A stretch of 64,000 bases of DNA from Natronococcus sp. CG52 (GTDB lineage: Archaea > Halobacteriota > Halobacteria > Halobacteriales > Natrialbaceae): NCBI RefSeq assembly GCF_023913515.1, contig NZ_CP099391.1, positions 1,054,001 to 1,118,000 on the forward strand. Reading direction: 5' to 3'. Made by a program: the position numbers and the translations under genes. Positions within the stretch are counted from its first letter, which is position 1. Each line of letters begins with the position of its first letter. Positions 6,435 to 33,509 of the stretch are shown one piece after another. The notes under the pieces are model-generated. The model saw nothing but the letters and a program-made list of their open reading frames with translations. It did no database searches and was not told the origin of the DNA.

Positions 6435-6507
6435 GCACTCTCCGGTTTTCGCTCCTCGTTTAAGGCTCTTCCTTTTCGATCCGATCGGTGGGTATCGGCC
6501 GCACGTC

Positions 6508-7167
6508 TCACCGTTCCGAACCGGCCACCGTCGCGTAACAGTTCCCGCTCGAGAGTTCCCACTCGAGCACCGCGAGGGCGCTCGCCTCGAGGTCCGCCTC
6601 GAACTCGTCGGGCGCGTAGATGTGGTAGAAGCGATCGACGGCTTCGCCGCCGGGGAGGGTCCACTCGACCGTCGTGTCGAACCCCTCGGTTTCGTCGAAG
6701 CGGTCGTGGGCGGTCGACCAGGCGCTGACGAGCGCTCGCCCGTCGGGGGCAAGCACACGGGCGAGTTCGTCGAGGCTGTCCCGACGGGCATCCCGCGTCG
6801 GCAGGTGATGCAACGTCGCGACGTAGACGGCGATATCGACGACATCGTCGGCCAGCGGGAGCGCCGCGGCGTCGCCCTGGACCAGCGAGACGTCGAACTC
6901 GCGCTCGAGCGCCCGTGCCCGCCCGGTCTCGAGCAGCCCGCGACTCACGTCGAGGCCGACGACGTGCTCGAGCGCCGCTGCGTCGGCCAGCAGTTCGGCG
7001 TGACGGCAGTTGCCACAGCCGAGATCGAGACCGACGGAGCCGCCGCGAGCGGTCACCCCGTGATCCCGGACGAAGCGCTCGACTTCCGGCCAGGCGTACT
7101 CGCGGGTCGAGGCGAAGTGACTCGCGATTCGGTCGTACGTCTCCCGGACGGTCGTTCGACGGTCCAT
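6508..7167 (-). CDS. Trm9-like class I SAM-dependent methyltransferase
   Basis: A 219-residue Rossmann-fold methyltransferase. The N-terminal TYDRIASHFASTREYAWPEV closely follows the Trm9/ABH8 pattern (YD-IA-HF--TR---WP). Motif I is LDLGCGNCRHAE, the acidic strand-2 end is VVGLDVSRG, and motif IV is VYVATLHHLPT. Trm9 modifies wobble uridines of tRNA in eukaryotes, and in Haloferax homologs are reported partners of Trm112. A Trm112-like protein is encoded at 18723-18917. The start is the ATG at 7167 (MDRRTTVRETYD). It lies next to tRNA-Gly, probably by chance. The exact substrate is inferred. Confidence 0.75.
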   Translation of the reverse strand: MDRRTTVRETYDRIASHFASTREYAWPEVERFVRDHGVTARGGSVGLDLGCGNCRHAELLADAAALEHVVGLDVSRGLLETGRARALEREFDVSLVQGDAAALPLADDVVDIAVYVATLHHLPTRDARRDSLDELARVLAPDGRALVSAWSTAHDRFDETEGFDTTVEWTLPGGEAVDRFYHIYAPDEFEADLEASALAVLEWELSSGNCYATVAGSER

Positions 7168-7425
7168 CTCGGTCGATTCGAGAGCGCGTGCGCGGAAAAA
7201 TCGTTCGCTACGGACTGACGGGGTAATCACAAATAGCCGCGTGGTTCGATCGCTTCGAGGGTGTCCGACAAGTCGTTCGAAAGATGAGTGACTCTCTATA
7301 TGTTAGTAGAACGGTGACAGATACCGCGATTGCTCGTGAGACTCACACCGATCGACGGACACTTTGGAAATGTGACTAATCGTGCGTTACGTTCATACGG
7401 TGGGAGTGCCAAGCCATGGTACGGA

Positions 7426-7896
7426 ATGAGGCGCGAGCACTTCACGCTAGATGTCAGCAATGTCGACTGGGTCGAAACCGATGGCGAACCGGCGAAGCCG
7501 TCAGTATCGATCGATTTTACCGGCCCAGCGACGGATCTCCGCGAGCGCCTGGCCGGACCCGACGGCGAGATTCTCGAGGGCAGCGAAACCGACGCCGCGC
7601 TTCGGCTGCAGGGGTCGCTCGATTCAGACACCGACGGTGTCGTGAGTCTGGCCAACCGGACCACCGGCGAGTTCGTCCTCGAACTCAACGAGAAGGCCAA
7701 CGACGTCCTGAAGTTCATCCGGGCCGCCCGCGGCTACGGTGAGCAGGAACCGGACGACGAGGGCCGGTACGAGATCGAGATCATGCTCGACGGCGACGAG
7801 TTCGTCAGCTACGACAAGCAGACGTTCCTGGTCTACGACGAGGAGGGGAACCTCCTCCGAAAACACAGTCTGATCCCGAGCGGTATCGAACTCTAA
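7426..7896 (+). CDS. DUF5793 family protein
   Basis: The 156-residue acidic soluble protein begins MRREHFTLDVSNVDWV and is one of the conserved haloarchaeal proteins catalogued as DUF5793. It has FTGPATDLRERLAGPDGE, a central LNEKANDVLKFIRAARGYGE and a C-terminal beta-rich FLVYDEEGNLLRKHSLIPSG. No catalytic motif or membrane segment is visible. I chose the ATG at 7426 because sequence between the upstream TTG (7330) and here is not conserved-looking. Function unknown. Confidence 0.75.
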   Translation: MRREHFTLDVSNVDWVETDGEPAKPSVSIDFTGPATDLRERLAGPDGEILEGSETDAALRLQGSLDSDTDGVVSLANRTTGEFVLELNEKANDVLKFIRAARGYGEQEPDDEGRYEIEIMLDGDEFVSYDKQTFLVYDEEGNLLRKHSLIPSGIEL

Positions 7897-7923
7897 CCCT
7901 GTCGAGCAGAAATCGACCGGCAA

Positions 7924-7950
7924 TTATAAGTATTTTAGGCGCACCTAAAT
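7924..7950 (+). promoter_or_regulatory. TATA box and DtxR-type palindromic operator before the ABC ATPase
   Basis: A TATA-like ttataag (7924-7930) is followed by the near-perfect palindrome tttaggcgcacctaaa (7934-7949). The arms TTTAGG and CCTAAA match the metal-dependent DtxR/SirR/Idr box pattern TTAGG-N4-CCTAA. The site covers the space between TATA box and start codon, where a bound repressor would block initiation. Confidence 0.65.
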
Positions 7951-7953
7951 CGA

Positions 7954-9156
7954 ATGTGCGCCGGCAGACGCCGGAGAGTCGATATGGGGTACGGACAACT
8001 ACTCACGACGGCGGCCGACGAAACGCAGCGGGAGTCGCTGCCTCCACAGACTACGGACGGCGTCGTCCTCGAACTCGAAGACGTCGCCAAACGCTACGGG
8101 AGCGAGACCGTGATCTCGAATCTCTCGCTTTCCGTCCGCGACGGCGAAATTCTCACGCTGCTCGGACCGTCCGGCTGCGGCAAGACGACGACCCTGCGAC
8201 TCATCGCCGGACTCGAGAAACCGAACCAGGGCGACATCCGCCTCCGGAACGACCCCGTCGCGGGGAACGGTCGGTTCGTCCCCGCCGAGGAACGCGGTAT
8301 CGGGGTCGTCTTCCAGGAGTTCGCCCTATTTCCGCATCTCACCGCCCGGGAGAACGTCGCCTTCGGCCTTCAGGACCGGTCCGAACCGGAGCGTGAGGCC
8401 CGCGTCGCGGAACTGCTCGAACTCGTGGGCCTCGAGGCACACGACGAGGACTATCCGGACGAACTCTCCGGCGGCCAACAGCAACGGATCGCGCTCGCGC
8501 GCTCGCTCGCGCCCGAGCCGGAGATGCTCCTGCTCGACGAACCGTTCTCGAACCTGGACGTCGACCTGCGCGTCGAGATGCGCGAGGAGGTCCGCCGGAT
8601 CATCAAGGAGGCTGGAGTCACCGCCATCTCCGTCACGCACGACCAGGAGGAGGCGATGTCGATCTCCGACCGCGTCGCCGTGATGAACGGCGGCGATATC
8701 GAACAGATCGACACCCCCGAGCGGGTCTTCCAGCAGCCCGAGTCGCGGTTCGTCGCGGGGTTTCTCGGCCACGCTAGCTTCCTCTCGGGCGCGGTTCACG
8801 GGGATCACGTCGACACCGCGCTCGGACGGGTGCTCCGCGACAACGTCAACGGGCTCGCCGAACAGTACGACGGAACCACCGTCGACCTGCTCGTCAGGCC
8901 GGACGACGTGACCGCCTGCCCGACCGAGGTGGCCGACACGGAAGCCGACGGCACGGTCGTCTACCGGCGCTATCTCGGTCCGACAGTCCTCTACCGCGTC
9001 GAACTCGACAGCGGAGAGACCATCGAGTGCATGCACAACCACTCGGACCGGATCGACCTGGACGAGCGCGTCGCCGTTCGCGTCACCGCTGACCACGAAC
9101 TCGCCTGGTTCCCGGCCGGTCAGCGGAACAGGAATCCGTCAGTCGACGCCGACTGA
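7954..9156 (+). CDS. ABC transporter ATP-binding protein, FbpC/PotA-like, probably iron-regulated
   Basis: The 400-residue ATPase has Walker A GPSGCGKTT, Q-loop VVFQEF, signature LSGGQQQR, Walker B MLLLDEP and H-loop SVTHD. A C-terminal regulatory TOBE-like region (VDLLVRPDDVTACP, YLGPTVLYRVELD) follows. This layout belongs to importers of ferric iron, polyamines, sugars or anions. No permease or binding protein lies nearby, so it is an orphan. The DtxR-type box in its promoter points to metal control. Start: the ATG at 7954 sits about 27 bases after the TATA box (leaderless). An ATG at 7984 with GGAG upstream is an alternative and would remove ten residues. Confidence 0.88.
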   Translation: MCAGRRRRVDMGYGQLLTTAADETQRESLPPQTTDGVVLELEDVAKRYGSETVISNLSLSVRDGEILTLLGPSGCGKTTTLRLIAGLEKPNQGDIRLRNDPVAGNGRFVPAEERGIGVVFQEFALFPHLTARENVAFGLQDRSEPEREARVAELLELVGLEAHDEDYPDELSGGQQQRIALARSLAPEPEMLLLDEPFSNLDVDLRVEMREEVRRIIKEAGVTAISVTHDQEEAMSISDRVAVMNGGDIEQIDTPERVFQQPESRFVAGFLGHASFLSGAVHGDHVDTALGRVLRDNVNGLAEQYDGTTVDLLVRPDDVTACPTEVADTEADGTVVYRRYLGPTVLYRVELDSGETIECMHNHSDRIDLDERVAVRVTADHELAWFPAGQRNRNPSVDAD

Positions 9157-9254
9157 TCCGTCCCCGCCCTCTCCCCACCGTCCGTTCTCGCGCTGTCCTT
9201 CTCGAGTCGTACCGAACGGGCAGATTGATGTACCGATAGCTTCGAGTCGGTTCC

Positions 9255-26141: not shown

Positions 26142-26984
26142 TTACTGCCGACGAATCGAGGGCACCCACCGCTCGAGGTTCACTCGCTCAGAGAGCGACC
26201 AGCGGCCGACGAGCACCCGCGAGAGTTCGACGCAGACGTACGCGAGGACGATCCCGGCGAGGACGTCGATCGCCCAGTGGATCCCCAGGTACATCGTCGA
26301 GATGGCGACGCTGATCGCCAGCAGGCCTGCGACGGGATACCAGCGCGGGTAGACGTCCCGCGTCCGGTAGGCGAGGATGCCGACGGTGGCCGCGAGCGAG
26401 GTGTGTAGCGACGGGAAGACGTTCGTGTTGCGGTTGACCTGGCGGGTGAGGTGCTGGTACTTCGGGTACGTGTCGTACATGAGCGCCTCGACGAGTTCGG
26501 GCATTACGTTGCGCGGTCCGTAGGCGATGACGAAGACGTACAGCACCAGCCCGAGCGTGTAGTTGAGCGTGTACGCCGTCAGCAGCTCTCGCAGCGGTCG
26601 GGTGTTCGACAGCGCGAAGTAGGCGACGACGGGGAAGACGAGCAGGAAGACGTAGCCGTAGATGTAGATGAAGGAGAAGTACGCCGTCACCGCTGGCGTC
26701 GCCTGGGACTGGAGCCAGAGGATGAACTGACCTTCGATCTCGTAAATCGGCCCCGTGAGGTTCCAGCCGATCATCCACGAGAAATCGGGGACGAAGTGTC
26801 TGGCTGCGCTGTTGCCGAGCAACACGGTCGCGAGAAGCAGGGTGATCGGCGCGGCCGCGCGCAGTCGGTCTTTCCACTCGAAGCGGGTCTCCCGAAGCCG
26901 GTAGCGACCGACGAAGAGGACGATTCCGGCGAGCGTCATGAGGGTGATGACGACGACCAACTGAACAAGTACCTGGGCCAGCAT
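26142..26984 (-). CDS. PAP2-superfamily membrane phosphatase, copy A
   Basis: The 280-residue membrane protein has about six helices. It carries PAP2 motifs SLHTS in NTNVFPSLHTSLAATVGI and the last motif YLGIHWAIDVLAG, with the catalytic histidines in both. YIYGYVFLLVFPVVAYF and VIAYGPRNVMPE are like archaeal members annotated as PAP2 or inositol-phosphorylceramide-synthase-like. The likely substrate is a lipid phosphate at the membrane; not provable here. Its ATG directly follows the stop of the solute-binding protein gene. A close paralog is at 28810-29682. Confidence 0.85.
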   Translation of the reverse strand: MLAQVLVQLVVVITLMTLAGIVLFVGRYRLRETRFEWKDRLRAAAPITLLLATVLLGNSAARHFVPDFSWMIGWNLTGPIYEIEGQFILWLQSQATPAVTAYFSFIYIYGYVFLLVFPVVAYFALSNTRPLRELLTAYTLNYTLGLVLYVFVIAYGPRNVMPELVEALMYDTYPKYQHLTRQVNRNTNVFPSLHTSLAATVGILAYRTRDVYPRWYPVAGLLAISVAISTMYLGIHWAIDVLAGIVLAYVCVELSRVLVGRWSLSERVNLERWVPSIRRQ

Positions 26985-28745
26985 TCAGCGTCTCACCCGG
27001 AGGGTTCCGTCGCCGTACCGGAAGCCAGCGTCCTCGAACGCCTCCCTGGCGGCGCCGACGTCCAGGTCACCGTCGGATCCGAGAAACGGCGTGACCGGAT
27101 CCTCGCCGTTCCAAGCGAGGTCGTCGGGCGTCCACTCGTCGGTCACGGGGGTCGCGGTCGGATCGGCGTAGCCGTGGAACACGTCCTCGACCAGCCAGGC
27201 CTTGTCGATCAGGCCGGCGACGGCCCGGCGGAACCGCGGATTGCCGAACGGTGCCCGTCGCGCGTTGAACCCGACGTGGTAGAACGTCCACGAGGCTGAC
27301 TCGAGCACCGCCACGTCGTCCTCCGCCTCGATATCGTCGAGGACGTACGTCTCGAGGGTCGAACTCGTGACGTCCGCGTCGTCCGTGGAGACGAGCTGAA
27401 TCGCCGACGTGCTCCGCGGATCGATCTGGATCCGGAGCTCCTCGACGGTCGGCGCCGGGAGGTCGACGTCGTCCCGGAGCGTGAAGTGATCCTCGTAGCG
27501 CTCGAGCGTGAGGTGTTCGCGCTCGGTTCGGCTCCCGAAGCGGAACGGGCCGCTACCGATCGGCGGGACGTTATCCGTGGTGATCGCCTCGGTCGCACCC
27601 TGTGCGACGCGAACGCCGGGGACGTCCGCCTGGATCGCCCGCTCCGACCAGACGTGCTCGGGGAGAACCGGTACCGTCAGCGCGCGCTCGGCGACGGCCT
27701 CGCCCGTCTCGACGGCGAGTTCGAGTTCGTGGTCGCCCTGCACGTTTACCTCCTCGACGGCCGCCGCCAGTCCCCGATACTGGGGTGGCGGCGACGGGCT
27801 CTCGCCGCTGCCGAGTTCAGTGTCCTGCAGGAGCCGGTAGGTAAAGTCGACGTCGGCGGCGGTGAGCCGTTCACCGTCGTGGAAGGAGCAGTCCTCGCGA
27901 AGCCGCACCTGAAGCGTTCCGTCGTCCCACTCGACGGACTCGGCGAGCCAGGGCTCGAGTTCGCCGTCGCGTTCGGTCGCCAGCGAGTCGTACAGCAGAT
28001 CGATAACAGGGTCGTGATCGCGGTACTCGGCCGTGAGCGGATTGATGTTCTGTGACGGACGCGCGTCCAGGTGGACGGCGCGCAGCCGCTCGGTGTCCCC
28101 GCGCGTCTCGAGACCGAGATAGCCGAGTCGGGTCGCCAGGTGTCCTCGCTTCCAGCCGTCGAAGCGGTCGGTCCTGACCATCCGGTGTTCCTCGGGGACG
28201 CAGATCGGCACGAACGGCTGCTCGCGAGCGACCTCTTCGAGCAGGTCATCGACGGCCGCCTCGCGGTCGTCGCCGCCCGTCCGCCGCTGTTCCTCGAGCA
28301 ACTCGTCGATCCGCAAGTTCGTGAAGCCGAAGGGGTTCTGCCAGCCGGACTCGTCGGCGTACAGCGAGTGCAACGCCTCGTAGAGGAAGTCCGGATCGGT
28401 TCCGCCCGGATGCTGGCCGACGTAGAGGTCGAAGTCGTGGTTGATCAGGACCGCCCGCAGGAACTCCTCGTTCGAGCGCATCTCGATCGAGACGTCGACC
28501 CCGACGGCTTCGAGGACGGCGGCGACCTCTCGTGCTATCTGGATGCTCTCTCGGTCACCGTCGGCGGGGACGGTCGTGATCGTGAGCGAGAGCTGTTCGA
28601 CGTCGTCCCGGTTGACGACGGTCCGAACCTGTCGAACGCAGCCGCTGGTTGCGACGGTCAGCCCGGCCGCTCCGGCGAGGACGGCGCGTCGGCTGGTGGC
28701 GCGTTCGGCGGCCGTCTCGCTCGAAGCGGCTTCTCGCTCGCTCAT
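26985..28745 (-). CDS. Family 5 solute-binding lipoprotein, copy A
   Basis: A 586-residue protein with a Tat-type signal (TSRRAVLAGAAGLTVATSGC) ending in a lipobox Cys, so it is likely exported folded and lipid-anchored outside the cell. The body matches oligopeptide/dipeptide-type binding proteins (SBP family 5): NPLTAEYRDHDPVIDLLYDS, LREDCSFHDGERLTAADVDF, FHDGERLTA, GPFRFGSRTE, SWTFYHVGFNARRAPFGNP and RRAVAGLIDK. No permease or ATPase is nearby. It is followed without gap by PAP2 copy A. A TATA-like gatataac sits 30-37 bases upstream. A paralog is at 29672-31606. Confidence 0.87.
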   Translation of the reverse strand: MSEREAASSETAAERATSRRAVLAGAAGLTVATSGCVRQVRTVVNRDDVEQLSLTITTVPADGDRESIQIAREVAAVLEAVGVDVSIEMRSNEEFLRAVLINHDFDLYVGQHPGGTDPDFLYEALHSLYADESGWQNPFGFTNLRIDELLEEQRRTGGDDREAAVDDLLEEVAREQPFVPICVPEEHRMVRTDRFDGWKRGHLATRLGYLGLETRGDTERLRAVHLDARPSQNINPLTAEYRDHDPVIDLLYDSLATERDGELEPWLAESVEWDDGTLQVRLREDCSFHDGERLTAADVDFTYRLLQDTELGSGESPSPPPQYRGLAAAVEEVNVQGDHELELAVETGEAVAERALTVPVLPEHVWSERAIQADVPGVRVAQGATEAITTDNVPPIGSGPFRFGSRTEREHLTLERYEDHFTLRDDVDLPAPTVEELRIQIDPRSTSAIQLVSTDDADVTSSTLETYVLDDIEAEDDVAVLESASWTFYHVGFNARRAPFGNPRFRRAVAGLIDKAWLVEDVFHGYADPTATPVTDEWTPDDLAWNGEDPVTPFLGSDGDLDVGAAREAFEDAGFRYGDGTLRVRR

Positions 28746-28774
28746 TCGGTGGATACCTTCAGTTCATCTGTGGC

Positions 28775-28782
28775 GATATAAC
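28775..28782 (-). promoter_or_regulatory. TATA-like box of solute-binding protein copy A
   Basis: The motif gttatat (minus strand) is centred about 33 bases before the start codon at 28745. The other cassette has the same motif at the same distance (31635-31643), so the promoter was duplicated with the genes. Confidence 0.45.
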
Positions 28783-28809
28783 AGTATTACGCTGTAGAGC
28801 GCTGCGTCG

Positions 28810-29682
28810 TTACTCGCCGTTACGGCGTCGCTCGGCCAGCCGATGTCTCGCGGACTCGTACAGTTCCGTGAGCGACCAGCGGCCGACGAGACGGTCCGAG
28901 AGAACGACACAGGTCGTCGCGAGCACGAGGCCGGCGGCGACGTCGACCCCCCAGTGGATGCCGAGGTACATCGTCGAGATGGCGACGCTGATCGCGAGCA
29001 CGACCGCGACGGGGAACCAGTTCGGATAGCTCGAGCGCGTCGTGTAGGCGAACATCGCGACGGTAGCCGCGAGCGAGGTGTGTAGCGACGGGAAGACGTT
29101 CGTATTCTGGTTGACCTCCCGCGTGAGGTGCTGGTACTCGGGACTGTTGTCGTACAGCATCGTCACCTCCAGCACCTCGGGCATTACGTTTCGCGGGCCG
29201 TAGGCGATGACCAGCAGGTAGAGGCTGAGCCCGATGACGTAGTTGAGCGAGTACGCGGTCAGCAGTTGCCGGAAGATCCGGGTATCCGAGAGCACGAAGT
29301 ACGCGATGACCGGAAAGACGAGCATGAACGTGTAGCCGTAGATGTAGATCGCCGAGAAGTACATCGTTAGCTCGTCGGTCGCGATCGACTGGAAGACCAG
29401 GACGAACTCTCCCTCGAAGCGGTAGAACGTCTCGGTCATGTGGTAGCCGATCTCGTCGGAGATGGCCGCCGCTCGCCAGCGTATAACCCTGTTGATCACC
29501 AGCACGATAGCCAGGAGAACGATCGCCGGCCCGGACACGCGGATCCGGGTAGGCCACGTTGCTTTCGTCTCGAGCAGTCGCTCGCGGCCGACGAAGAGGG
29601 GAATCGAGATCAGGAGTGCGAGTGCAACGACGACGACGAGCTGCGTCAATACCTCGGTAAGTATCGTCGCCTCAGGTATCAT
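28810..29682 (-). CDS. PAP2-superfamily membrane phosphatase, copy B
   Basis: The 290-residue protein is a paralog of the 26142-26984 product. Long shared blocks include YIYGYTFMLVFPVIAYF, VIAYGPRNVMPE, NTNVFPSLHTSLAATVAMF and ISVAISTMYLGIHWGVD. Both catalytic PAP2 motifs are intact and about six membrane helices are predicted. It overlaps the end of solute-binding protein copy B by 11 bases, so translation is coupled. Lipid phosphatase or phosphotransferase activity is inferred from the family. Confidence 0.85.
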   Translation of the reverse strand: MIPEATILTEVLTQLVVVVALALLISIPLFVGRERLLETKATWPTRIRVSGPAIVLLAIVLVINRVIRWRAAAISDEIGYHMTETFYRFEGEFVLVFQSIATDELTMYFSAIYIYGYTFMLVFPVIAYFVLSDTRIFRQLLTAYSLNYVIGLSLYLLVIAYGPRNVMPEVLEVTMLYDNSPEYQHLTREVNQNTNVFPSLHTSLAATVAMFAYTTRSSYPNWFPVAVVLAISVAISTMYLGIHWGVDVAAGLVLATTCVVLSDRLVGRWSLTELYESARHRLAERRRNGE

Positions 29683-31606
29683 CGTTCCTGAGAAGCCGTC
29701 CCTGATCGTCGTACCGGAACTCGGTCGCGAAGGCGTCCCGCGCCGCGTCGACGTCGAGTTCGCCGTCGGATCCGAAGAACGGCGTCACCGGATCCTCGTC
29801 GTCTTCGTCCATCGCGAGCGCATCGGGAACCCACTCGTCGGACAACGGAACCGCGACGGGCTCTGCGTGATTGCCGAACACGTCCTCGATGATCCACGAC
29901 TTGTCGAGCAACCGGGAGACGAGGTGTCGAACGCTGGAGTCACTGAACGCCTCAGTCCGGGTGTTGAACCCCACGTGGTAGAACATTCGCGACTGCCGTG
30001 GTCCGATCCACCTCGTTTCGGACGCCTCGTCGCCGTCGAGCCACTCCTCGTCGCCCTCGAGTCTGCCCTTGAGCGCGTGCGTACTGAGCATCGAGGCCGT
30101 AACGTCTGCGCCGTCGTTTGCGACGCGCTCGACCGCGGTGCTACCGGGGTCGATCCCGAACTTGATCGACTCGACGTCGGCGTCGGGAAGGTCGTCGTCG
30201 TCCCGCGTGAAGTGGTCCTCGAAGCGCTCGAGCGTGAGCGATTCGCGCGGGCTGTTGTCCTGGAAGCGGAACGGACCGCTGCCGGTAGCCGGGATGTTGC
30301 TCATCGTGACGAGTCCCCACTTTCCCTGCGGAGCGTCCGCGCTCTCGGTGCGGGAGTCGACCTGATTCTTCCAGAGGTGTTTCGGGAGGATCGGAACGGT
30401 CAGCGCACGCCTGGCGACGGACTCGATATTGGTCGCCACGTCGATTCGGAGCTCGTAGGAGTCGTCCTCGAGAAAGTCCTCGACGACGATGTCCGTGCTC
30501 GGATCGTCGATCATCGAGGTCTGACTTCGGTACCGCGGTGCAGGAGAGGGGGTGTCGGCTTCGCCGTACGAGGTGTCCGCGAGGAACTCGTAGGTGAACG
30601 CGACGTCCTCGGCGGTCACGTATCTGTCCGTCTCCTCGTCCTCGTCGTCGTCGTGGAACGGACACTCCTCTCGGAGCTTGATGTGGAGACTGCCGTCGTC
30701 CCACTCGACGGACTCGGCGAGCCAGGGCACGAGTTCGCCGTCGCGTTCGGTCAGCAGCGAGTCGTACAGCAGGTTGACGATCGTTCCTCGATCCCGAATC
30801 GTCGCCGAGAGCGGATTCAGGTTGCGCGTCGCCCGCGTGTCCGTGATGAGCGCGCGCAACCGGTCGACGCCGGGCTCCGGGTCGAGGTTGAGAAACCCGT
30901 GTCGCGTCGGAAGGTATCCGTCGCTCGCTCCGTCGTCCTCGTCGTTCGCGTCCCAGGTGCCGAAGTGTTCAGTCCGGGCGACCCGGTATTCTTCGGGAAA
31001 GCATATGGGGTCGAACGGCTTCTCCTCGACCAACTCCGCGAGCAGGTCGGCGATGACGGCTTTGCGATCGTCGTCGGTGTCCGCCCGGCGCTGCTCCTCG
31101 AGTAATTCGTCCATAGACGACCCCCCAGGCGGGGTCTCGGACAGGTTCTTGGACGGAGACGGGTTCTCAAACAGGATCTCGGGCTGGGTCTCGTCGAACC
31201 CGAAGGGGTTCTGCCAGCCGGACTCGTCGGCGTACTTGGAGTGGAGGGCACCGTAGAGGAAGTCCGGATCGAAGCCACCTGGGTGGCGACCGACGTAGAG
31301 GTCGAAATCGTGGTCGATCAGGATCGTCTCCAGGAACTCGGAGGGCGACCGCATGTCGATGGAGACGTCGGCGCCGACGGCCTCGAGGTTGGCCTCGAGA
31401 TGGCGGGCGATCCGTACGGCTTCTCTGTCGCTGTCTGCGGGGACCGTCGTGATGGAGAGGGCAAGGCGGTCTGTGACATCCTGGCCGACAACGCTTCCAA
31501 CGCGGTCGATACAGCCGCTGGTCAGGAGGGCGAGACCGGACGCACCTGCGGCTAAAACGGATCGGCGACTCGCGTTGTCACCAGAATTAGTTGGCTTACG
31601 ATTCAT
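29672..31606 (-). CDS. Family 5 solute-binding lipoprotein, copy B
   Basis: A 644-residue paralog of the 26985-28745 product, starting MNRKPTNSGDNASRRSVL with Tat-like RR and lipobox ALLTSGC. Shared blocks include VPADSDREAVRIARHLEANL, LYVGRHPGGFDPDFLYGALH, YADESGWQNPFGF and RMFYHVGFNTR. It is about 58 residues longer, partly from an insert after the GWQNPFGF block (QPEILFENPSPSKN) and from charged insertions (ECPFHDDDEDEETDRYV). Ligand unknown. I chose the ATG at 31606, which gives a normal signal sequence. It begins the second cassette with PAP2 copy B. Confidence 0.86.
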   Translation of the reverse strand: MNRKPTNSGDNASRRSVLAAGASGLALLTSGCIDRVGSVVGQDVTDRLALSITTVPADSDREAVRIARHLEANLEAVGADVSIDMRSPSEFLETILIDHDFDLYVGRHPGGFDPDFLYGALHSKYADESGWQNPFGFDETQPEILFENPSPSKNLSETPPGGSSMDELLEEQRRADTDDDRKAVIADLLAELVEEKPFDPICFPEEYRVARTEHFGTWDANDEDDGASDGYLPTRHGFLNLDPEPGVDRLRALITDTRATRNLNPLSATIRDRGTIVNLLYDSLLTERDGELVPWLAESVEWDDGSLHIKLREECPFHDDDEDEETDRYVTAEDVAFTYEFLADTSYGEADTPSPAPRYRSQTSMIDDPSTDIVVEDFLEDDSYELRIDVATNIESVARRALTVPILPKHLWKNQVDSRTESADAPQGKWGLVTMSNIPATGSGPFRFQDNSPRESLTLERFEDHFTRDDDDLPDADVESIKFGIDPGSTAVERVANDGADVTASMLSTHALKGRLEGDEEWLDGDEASETRWIGPRQSRMFYHVGFNTRTEAFSDSSVRHLVSRLLDKSWIIEDVFGNHAEPVAVPLSDEWVPDALAMDEDDEDPVTPFFGSDGELDVDAARDAFATEFRYDDQGRLLRNDDT

Positions 31607-32022
31607 TCCGTTCTGGTAGATCGGTTCGTCACTGGTATATAACAAGTTTGTGTTCTATGCTCGGCAATATATCGATAAATAAATGTGATACTCATTGCCA
31701 CTGTCATTTAGTTCGCGCCTACCGGTACTGGTCACGGAGGCGGCGGTACCGCCTGTACAGTCGTGCTCCGACTCGCTCGAGGCGGTGGGTACTCGCGAGC
31801 CCGCTCGCCGAGCGTCGACGCTGGGTCGAGTCCCGAGCGAGGTGGTCGAGGGCGGTTCCGGTCCCGCTACGGGCGAACAGCGAGGGCCACTCGAGGTAGT
31901 CGAGCACGCGCAGGCTGCTGATCGACGCGTTTCCGGACGGAATCAAATCGGTACCGTGTTCTCGCGGCCCGCCGCATCGCCGGAACGTAACACCAATAGG
32001 GCGACCGGTGAAACACGTTCCC
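31607..32022. other. Spacer between solute-binding protein copy B and RNase P component 4
   Basis: The left end holds the lipoprotein gene's TATA-like gtatataac (31635-31643). A minus-strand frame at 31719-31907 could encode about 62 Arg-rich residues (LDYLEWPSLFARSGTG to RRYRRLRDQYR). It might be a small basic protein or the end of a lost gene, but I cannot support it further. Confidence 0.35.
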
Positions 32023-32379: not shown

Positions 32380-32628
32380 ATGAATCAAGAGGAACGCAAA
32401 CGCCGAGCCCACGACCTCGACGTCACGGTCTGGGTCGGCAAGAGCGGTATCGAGTCGGTCGTCGACGAACTCAACGATCAGCTCTCGGACAAGGACCTCG
32501 TGAAGGTGAAGTTCCTGCGAGCGGCTCGTGCCGGTAGCTCTACCGAGGAGAAGGCAGCCGACCTCGCCGACCAGGTTAACGCCGAACTCGTCGATACCCG
32601 CGGGCACACGGCAGTACTGTATCGATGA
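32380..32628 (+). CDS. CRM-domain (YhbY-like) RNA-binding protein
   Basis: An 82-residue protein with the CRM fold. The opening MNQEERKRRAHDLDVTVWVG and KSGIESVVDELNDQLSDKDL have GKSGI in place of the usual GKNGV loop, followed by KVKFLRAARAGSSTEE and RGHTAVLYR. Such proteins associate with pre-ribosomal RNA in bacteria and introns in plants; the archaeal role is probably ribosome related. Its stop overlaps the start of the MscS gene (ATGA). Confidence 0.88.
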   Translation: MNQEERKRRAHDLDVTVWVGKSGIESVVDELNDQLSDKDLVKVKFLRAARAGSSTEEKAADLADQVNAELVDTRGHTAVLYR

Positions 32629-33509
32629 GCGTCGGCTCGGTACTGGGACAGCTCGACGGACTCAGCACGGCGGCGCTCGCGGCGAGCGTGATCGCGGCGC
32701 TCCGGTTCGTCGTCGCCTTCGTCGTCGTCTGGACGATCGGCCGCCTGGTCGTCGTGCCGTTGGCCGATCGCGCGTTCGATCAGCGGGGTCTGGACGAACA
32801 CGCCCGAAATCCGCTGTTGATGCTCACGAAGTTCGGTATCGGCTTCGTCGCGGTCGCGGCCGCGTTCGGCTTCGCCGGATTCGAGAACTTCCTGGTATCG
32901 CTGGCCGGCATCGCCGCGGCCGGGGCACTAGCGGTCGGTCTGGCGATGCAGAACGTCATCTCGAACTTCGTCGCGGGAATCTTCATCTACGCAGACAAGC
33001 CGTTCCGGATCGGCGACTGGATCGAGTGGGACGGCGGCGACTACTCCGGGATCGTCGAGGACATCAGCCTCCGCGTCACTCGCGTCCGAACCTTCGACAA
33101 CGAACTGCTGACGGTACCGAACTCGGAACTCACCGGCGGCGTCGTCAAGAACCCCGTCGACGGCGGGAAACTCCGGCTGAAGTTCGTCTTCGGCATCGGC
33201 TACGGCGACGACATTCAGCAGGCGACCGACGTCATCATCGAAGAGGCCGAACGCCACCCGGACATCATGGACGACCCTGCGCCCTCCGTCCGTCTGACCG
33301 AACTCAACGACTCCGACGTCGGCCTCCAGTCACGGATCTGGATCGCGGACCCCTCGCGAGCGGACTTCGTCCGCACCAGGGGCGAGTACATCACCGCGGT
33401 CAAACAGCGGTTCGACGAGGAAGGGATCGACATCCCCTACCCTGTCCGGACGTTCGAGGGTGGACTCGAGTTCGAGGGTCGCCAACAGATCGGACAGCCG
33501 GCCGAGTAG
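32625..33509 (+). CDS. MscS-family mechanosensitive ion channel
   Basis: A 294-residue small-conductance channel. About three membrane segments lie in the first 110 residues; TM3 lines the pore (GIAAAGALAVGLAMQNVISN). The beta domain follows (GDWIEWDGGDYSGIVEDISL, RTFDNELLTVPNSELTGGVV) with a C-terminal alpha/beta part. It releases solutes on osmotic downshock, fitting a halophile. It overlaps the CRM gene by four bases. A T6 run after the stop suggests termination. Confidence 0.92.
   Translation: MSVGSVLGQLDGLSTAALAASVIAALRFVVAFVVVWTIGRLVVVPLADRAFDQRGLDEHARNPLLMLTKFGIGFVAVAAAFGFAGFENFLVSLAGIAAAGALAVGLAMQNVISNFVAGIFIYADKPFRIGDWIEWDGGDYSGIVEDISLRVTRVRTFDNELLTVPNSELTGGVVKNPVDGGKLRLKFVFGIGYGDDIQQATDVIIEEAERHPDIMDDPAPSVRLTELNDSDVGLQSRIWIADPSRADFVRTRGEYITAVKQRFDEEGIDIPYPVRTFEGGLEFEGRQQIGQPAE

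Follow-up and report, generated by a model that had tools for sequence, protein, structure and literature searches.

Two adjacent gene cassettes in Natronococcus sp. CG52 raise the question of what a solute-binding lipoprotein does when its neighbour is a membrane enzyme and no transporter accompanies it. The window, that is, the whole stretch of DNA analysed, covers 64,000 nucleotides (C1:1054001-1118000 of a genome of 4.74 Mb, handle G000), and its positions 26142-31606 carry on the minus strand two cassettes, each consisting of a gene for an SBP_bac_5 solute-binding protein (SBP) of lipoprotein type followed by a gene for a PAP2_3 membrane enzyme. The known roles of solute-binding proteins lie in transporters and, in some cases, in sensors. 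An earlier examination of the letters alone, referred to below as the sequence-only reading, had proposed a surface receptor working with a lipid phosphatase in place of a transporter. The reading that we favour, with a probability of roughly 60%, is that a lipid phosphatase or phosphotransferase at the outer face of the membrane has the circularly permuted SBP as an obligate subunit, which acts as its receptor or presents its substrate; we infer the contact, the chemistry and the ligand.

Cassettes with a circularly permuted binding protein

The coordinates and Pfam matches agree with the two tandem cassettes described in the sequence-only reading. SBP1 and SBP2 exceeded the curated cut-off of Pfam SBP_bac_5 (104.1 and 170.6 bits against 32.4), PAP2-1 and PAP2-2 exceeded that of PAP2_3 (66.7 and 66.0 bits against 27), and identity between the cassettes was 50% for the SBPs and 60% for the PAP2 enzymes. 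As also described, the genes abut or overlap (0 bases between SBP2 and PAP2-2, an 11-base overlap between SBP1 and PAP2-1). A TTATAT(A/C) box starting at -36, with its centre near -33 where a TATA-like box had been reported, was found upstream of both SBP starts and of neither PAP2 start, which suggests a separate transcription unit for each cassette. The same genome has a third one (C1:1578505-1581242; locus L015, SBP at 6506..8251 and PAP2 at 8341..9243), for which the pattern used found no TTATAT-type box. Gene calls at window 18-40 kb gave no match to a permease or ATPase of ATP-binding cassette (ABC) type, in line with the sequence-only reading, with home-made family-5-type profiles that could miss sugar-type permeases. 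The third cassette had escaped that reading, as had the permutation and a third associated protein described below.

The family-5 SBPs of the cassettes are circularly permuted, with the C-terminal lobe placed ahead of the N-terminal part. By phmmer, residues 48-199 of SBP2 corresponded to AppA 356-503 and residues 248-534 to AppA 49-312. A whole-genome Pfam search placed SBP_bac_5 1-288 at window 26973-27962 and SBP_bac_5 287-358 at 28377-28598, where the gene encodes the N-terminus. The same swap appeared in SBP1, SBP2, the third copy and a permease-linked SBP (L014) when they were compared with a profile made from four normal-order SBPs of this genome. In a permutation test, sequences were rotated in five-residue steps and the best single alignment to the normal-SBP profile was taken. 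SBP2 rose from 109.7 to 150.4 bits in one collinear alignment (profile 70-504) when cut near residue 220, and the gains were 34.1 bits for SBP1, 19.1 for the third copy and 19.4 for L014, compared with 1.7 and 0.8 bits for two normal-order control SBPs. The best cut of SBP1 lay elsewhere (residues 414-429) and its alignment was partial (profile 193-507). In an AlphaFold2 model of SBP2 built with 51 sequences (predicted local distance difference test, pLDDT, 87.5; predicted template modelling score, pTM, 0.85), residues 213-586 superposed on the N-terminal portion of SBPs of solved structure (AppA, 1xoc, Z 22.8, 2.6 Å over 328 residues; NikZ, 4oeu, Z 23.0); the first lobe (residues 48-212) is predicted from sequence to be the equivalent of the C-terminal lobe. 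Thus the lipoproteins do keep the SBP_bac_5 fold, as the sequence-only reading had it, but only in permuted order; since they match SBP_bac_5 with a non-canonical order of segments, they are a permuted offshoot and not standard members of family 5. Most rows of the PAP2-type SBPs (defined below), those in which both lobes score, showed the swapped order, and an assembly error was ruled out as its cause by the same order in independent genomes.

Swapped-order SBPs were also found adjoining family-5 permeases in many haloarchaea (for example L151, L152, L155, L184-L187 and L191-L201), and the genome studied here has one within a complete permease and ATPase operon (L014:7395-9350, C1:818394-820349), so permuted SBPs evidently serve transporters too. 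Four genomes of one other family code of the phylum, probably methanogens judging from their place in it, carry permuted family-5 SBPs near ABC genes (L221-L224); the permutation is therefore not confined to haloarchaea. Normal order was seen in L190, L226 and L227. A contig scan beyond the phylum covered 140 relatives and kept 79 loci, 40 of them haloarchaeal, which were used here, and 39 actinobacterial, none of which had the swapped order. At L225:4810-7887, a 1026-aa open frame holds two tandem normal-order SBP domains beside ABC genes, a possible model for the way in which a duplication might give rise to a permutation.

In a tree of 83 SBPs, aligned in normal-order register, the 40 PAP2-type SBPs formed one side of one branch (Shimodaira-Hasegawa-like approximate likelihood ratio test 100), and the permease-linked permuted SBPs, including L014, fell outside this clade. 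At least five of the 40 PAP2-type rows have no directly following PAP2 gene (L162, L171, L179, L181 and the second copy of L029), so the label denotes a type of SBP, not adjacency. The free tree mixed some permease-linked permuted SBPs with normal-order SBPs. When all 70 permuted rows were kept together, the log-likelihood rose by 8.3 over that of the free tree (approximately unbiased test, p-AU 0.62). Several origins of the permutation were considered and set aside; a single origin is compatible with this test, which does not prove it.

Pairing and co-occurrence across haloarchaea

All 40 named haloarchaeal loci had a PAP2-type SBP with a PAP2 gene after it, and none of the 40 showed a family-5 permease match in flanks of up to 8 kb. 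A PAP2 gene directly followed 53 of the 67 PAP2-type SBPs in these loci, with gaps of -11 to 290 bases, 40 of the 53 lying within 11 bases; the remaining 14 SBPs are second tandem copies in Natrinema-type loci (SBP-PAP2-SBP), where the second PAP2 is lacking. The adjacency without a permease that the sequence-only reading had suggested searching for is thus found across haloarchaea. ATPase matches were seen in 8 of the 40 named loci, on the opposite strand and 3-5 kb away, and weak normal-SBP matches in two (L054 and L061). In L015 the ATPase is part of a sugar-type operon that also encodes a binding protein, the type being judged from the sequences.

Among 391 haloarchaeal genomes, 263 had both genes, 128 had neither, and none had one gene alone, at thresholds of E <= 1e-60 for the PAP2-type SBP and E <= 1e-40 for the PAP2 subfamily. 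The SBP cut sits in a gap between 1.1e-70 and 1.2e-50, the latter match being the permease-linked L151, and 35 weak SBP matches were set aside in this tally. At least 15 genus codes contain both states (g19, g22, g29, g32, g33, g34, g37, g41, g43, g44, g45, g51, g58, g70 and g77), which indicates that SBP and PAP2 were repeatedly gained or lost together. Gene positions were checked in 42 genomes of other families, one per genus: the pair lay within 300 bases on one strand in 39, and in the other three (G033, G136 and G179) the two genes were far apart, yet both were retained. Two further genomes examined (G019 and G131) had neither gene.

Conservation in other genera rules out chance or an artefact of one genome, and a degenerate transporter operon was rejected, as no permease match was found beside the cassettes. 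Of the two findings that would have spoken against the sequence-only reading, a pairing unique to this genome is contradicted by the 263 genomes, and the cognate permease operon does not appear among the permease-linked permuted SBPs, which lie outside the PAP2-type clade. Given the all-or-none co-occurrence and the abutting or overlapping genes, an obligate functional unit is by far the best reading, and direct contact between SBP and PAP2 is likely.

The enzyme, its neighbourhood and the role of the pair

The PAP2 copies keep their motifs, as had been stated before: R158, H194, H236 and D240 (PAP2-2 numbering), which we take to be the catalytic residues, were invariant in 43 of 43 aligned relatives. 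The AlphaFold2 model of PAP2-2 is a helical membrane protein (pLDDT 87.8), and its nearest folds by Foldseek were IPC synthase (9vj4, E 9.6e-5) and Aur1 (9ivc, 1.3e-4) at a TM-score of about 0.48, followed by a PgpB-type enzyme (5jki) and LpxE (6ebu), the four matches spanning E 9.6e-5 to 4.4e-3. By sequence profile the PgpB type (3.6e-5) was slightly closer than Aur1 (E about 4e-4, over 66 positions). The sequence of this PAP2_3 enzyme would suit a phosphatase as well as a phosphotransferase and cannot tell them apart. Positive loop charges lie mostly opposite the catalytic side, and the catalytic loops are predicted to be mostly outside the cell. On the side of the SBP, lipobox residues G35 and C36 are conserved in at least 90% of a 51-row alignment; pattern counts of 48 of 67 PAP2-type SBPs for the lipobox and 50 of 67 for the twin-arginine motif come from automatically called starts and are not relied on. 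Both parts would act on the outer face, given the lipoprotein anchor and the probable catalytic side of PAP2.

A survey of 20 kb contexts from other families gave as the commonest further neighbour a protein of about 400 aa, c2 (the 'WPYTSR' protein, 11 loci). It has a conserved half with WPYTS and AHxEYWDWFRLRH, which looks extracellular, and a hydrophobic C-terminal half, and showed no meaningful match in Pfam, NCBIfam or the PDB. An LssY_C-like identity was tried and rejected: the 11 members gave in Pfam, at E up to 10, a single chance-level match, to another family, and a PDB profile search returned nothing below E 1. LssY_C is presumably associated with PAP2 elsewhere, and a literature search for PAP2 with LssY found no such report. 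c2 was present in 240 of the 263 genomes with the pair and in 5 of the 128 without it, four of these five belonging to one genus (g19) of the same family as our genome. In 19 of the 42 position-checked genomes it lay no more than 8 kb from the SBP, and in 12 of the 42 it was on the same strand at a distance of at most 400 bases. G033, one of the genomes with unlinked SBP and PAP2, has a PAP2 gene 1 kb away from c2. The present genome has two unlinked copies (Table 1).

In 16 of the 42 genomes a GT-C glycosyltransferase-like gene (PMT_2 near cut-off) lay at most 8 kb from the SBP; this gene is often adjoined by an arylsulfotransferase-like gene (9 loci). In a set of 60 genomes, the GT-C gene (E < 1e-100) was present in 20 of 43 with the pair and in 1 of 17 without it, two more of the 17 having weaker matches. 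These neighbours suggest isoprenoid lipid carriers of surface glycans. The role in envelope lipid or polyprenyl-phosphate turnover put forward in the sequence-only reading gains from the GT-C neighbours, but the GT-C gene was not found in the genome studied here, which leaves the link to glycan carriers circumstantial. As a separate observation, G060 has an extra subfamily PAP2 about 1.5 kb from a GT-C-like gene, with no SBP beside it (L272:6030 and L272:9074). Upstream of the cassettes, window 32625-33509 encodes an MscS-type mechanosensitive channel, and five loci from families f7 and f9 (L249-L251, L253 and L254) likewise have a related MscS gene close to the SBP.

Taken together, these data point to a likely history in which the permuted SBP arose in the archaeal lineage, serving ABC importers, and one branch then swapped its permease for a PAP2 enzyme. 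The Tat-exported permuted lipoprotein would have become the recognition subunit of a PAP2_3 enzyme with an outward active site, binding an extracellular ligand and then either presenting it to the enzyme or gating the enzyme. The enzyme may act on isoprenoid lipid phosphates of the outer leaflet, with a role probably in surface-glycan or lipid turnover. The permutation, the gene pairing, the all-or-none co-occurrence and the conservation of the catalytic residues are demonstrated; we infer the outward topology of PAP2, its substrate, the direction of control and the physical complex. More doubtful, although possible, is a ligand-gated surface lipid phosphatase or phosphotransferase of three parts, the permuted lipoprotein, PAP2_3 and c2. 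Such a complex may control isoprenoid lipid phosphates of the outer leaflet, or recycle them, in the service of GT-C glycosylation and of sulfation at the archaeal surface, and an import-type receptor would then have turned into an enzyme subunit.

Several points weigh against the obligate receptor subunit. Gene pairing and shared loss could also arise from two proteins of one pathway that never touch. Subfamily PAP2 copies without an adjoining SBP occur in G006, G054, G060, G069, G075 and G117, each of which also has a paired copy. The loop bearing motifs C1 and C2 carries four K/R residues, so that the topology call is not clean. The SBP cut of 1e-60 was picked after the gap had been seen. 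The labels of the tree rows came from a profile of the very clade in question, which by itself would lead to some clustering.

The alternative that survives best, which we nevertheless consider unlikely, is a scavenging pair in which the lipoprotein captures a soluble phosphorylated nutrient, PAP2 dephosphorylates it and the product is imported, with no part in lipid turnover. AccA, a family-5 SBP that binds agrocinopine and sugar phosphates, was among the fold matches of SBP2, and a sugar-type ABC operon lies near the third copy on the other strand (L015 11030-15760), in keeping with the ATPase matches in 8 of 40 loci. However, that operon has its own binding protein, no ATPase match was seen in the other 32 named loci, and among solved structures the PAP2 model comes closest to lipid enzymes. 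It is less probable still that the SBP works as an orphan receptor for an ABC importer encoded elsewhere, with PAP2 merely a co-regulated envelope neighbour. Orphan SBPs using remote permeases exist, and the same organisms commonly have permuted SBPs that come with permeases, but these fall outside the clade, no named locus has a family-5 permease beside it, and in none of the 391 genomes does either gene occur alone. Equally improbable is a sensor SBP reporting to a signalling system, with PAP2 as downstream effector or housekeeping neighbour: it has a parallel in BasB and CosB, which copurified with taxis transducers in Halobacterium salinarum according to the portion of PMC3579733 consulted, but no transducer or kinase stood out among recurrent neighbours, in a survey that included no search aimed at those families. 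The obligate receptor subunit thus remains our preferred reading; conservation appears to support strongly the proposed receptor and lipid phosphatase in place of a transporter, and the earlier interpretation as a whole is partly supported.

Table 1. Positions of the cassette features in the window and of related loci
Feature	Position	Strand	Basis
SBP1, circularly permuted family-5 solute-binding lipoprotein, 644 aa	29672..31606	-	Pfam SBP_bac_5 E 1.1e-29; profile of four normal SBPs, own genome
SBP1 C-terminal-lobe equivalent, placed first, ends approximate	30878..31477	-	protein 59-222 = normal-order profile 368-507, 31.8 bits
SBP1 N-terminal two-thirds equivalent, placed last, ends approximate	29675..30877	-	protein 279-605 = profile 72-343, 41.3 bits; Pfam 291-623 = SBP_bac_5 1-270
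PAP2-1, PAP2_3 phosphatase/phosphotransferase-like membrane enzyme, 290 aa	28810..29682	-	Pfam E 3.1e-18; motif residues; first 11 bases lie within SBP1
SBP2, circularly permuted family-5 solute-binding lipoprotein, 586 aa	26985..28745	-	Pfam E 7.1e-50; AlphaFold2 pLDDT 87.5, pTM 0.85
SBP2 predicted C-terminal-lobe equivalent, placed first, ends approximate	28110..28604	-	AppA 356-503 alignment; SBP_bac_5 287-358; profile 362-504
SBP2 N-terminal two-thirds equivalent, placed last, ends approximate	26988..28109	-	model residues 213-586 on AppA (1xoc) 18-357
PAP2-2, PAP2_3 phosphatase/phosphotransferase-like membrane enzyme, 280 aa	26142..26984	-	Pfam E 5e-18; AlphaFold2 pLDDT 87.8; 0 bases after SBP2 stop
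TATA-like box TTATATAC, -36 of SBP1	31635..31642	-	pattern match
TATA-like box TTATATCG, -36 of SBP2	28774..28781	-	pattern match
Natrinema-type SBP-PAP2-SBP loci	L028-L032, L034, L035, L037, L039-L043, L045
c2 copies, own genome, unlinked, 430-460 aa	C1:2575462-2576745 and C1:384384-385766 (L270, L271)

Comparison with known systems

The SBP-PAP2 system is new, and the kinds of its components are known. Searches of the open-licence literature found no account of an SBP-PAP2 system or of circular permutation in family-5 SBPs, nor were known PAP2 enzymes found paired with a solute-binding protein in the literature searched; in the excerpt available of PMC9943897, obtained from a search on dolichol-phosphate recycling, PAP2 is not mentioned. 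A whole SBP clade is tied to a membrane lipid-phosphate enzyme in two-thirds of the 391 haloarchaeal genomes, the two co-occurring without exception, and annotators would label these permuted SBP genes plain transport proteins. If our reading is true, it shows a transport receptor turning into the component of an enzyme that regulates it or presents its substrate, and provides a testable candidate for the handling of lipid carriers on the outside of the archaeal membrane. Second, family-5 SBPs are naturally permuted in haloarchaea and in some probable methanogens, a finding useful for annotation and for the study of fold evolution.

The PAP2 enzymes of the cassettes have the PAP2 fold, motifs and membrane embedding in common with Aur1/IPC synthase (9vj4, 9ivc), PgpB-type enzymes (5jki) and LpxE (6ebu), and differ from them in sequence (17-20% identity) at a TM-score of about 0.48. 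BasB and CosB are a parallel, as haloarchaeal SBPs with a non-transport partner. We know of no permutation in either. As far as the consulted part of PMC3579733 describes them, both are putative substrate-binding proteins, and their partner is a taxis transducer, not PAP2. Tp0684 (MglB-2) of Treponema pallidum is a natural circularly permuted, membrane-tethered SBP (type Ic/cluster Bc), for which the sections consulted of PMC4990184 raise tethering as a possible reason. Tp0684 binds glucose, belongs to cluster B and presumably serves an ABC transporter, whereas the cassette SBPs belong to family 5 and have a PAP2 partner. SBP_bac_5 was their sole Pfam family up to E 0.1, which places them outside the cluster B sugar binders, and it is this family match that sets them apart from Tp0684. 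With AppA (1xoc), NikZ (4oeu), OppA and DppA, which are family-5 (cluster C) proteins of ABC importers, the cassette SBPs share the fold family (Z-scores of 22-23 with AppA and NikZ, about 320 residues aligned) and the placement as lipoproteins; they differ from all four in the permuted order of their segments and in having a PAP2 enzyme as partner instead of a permease and an ATPase.

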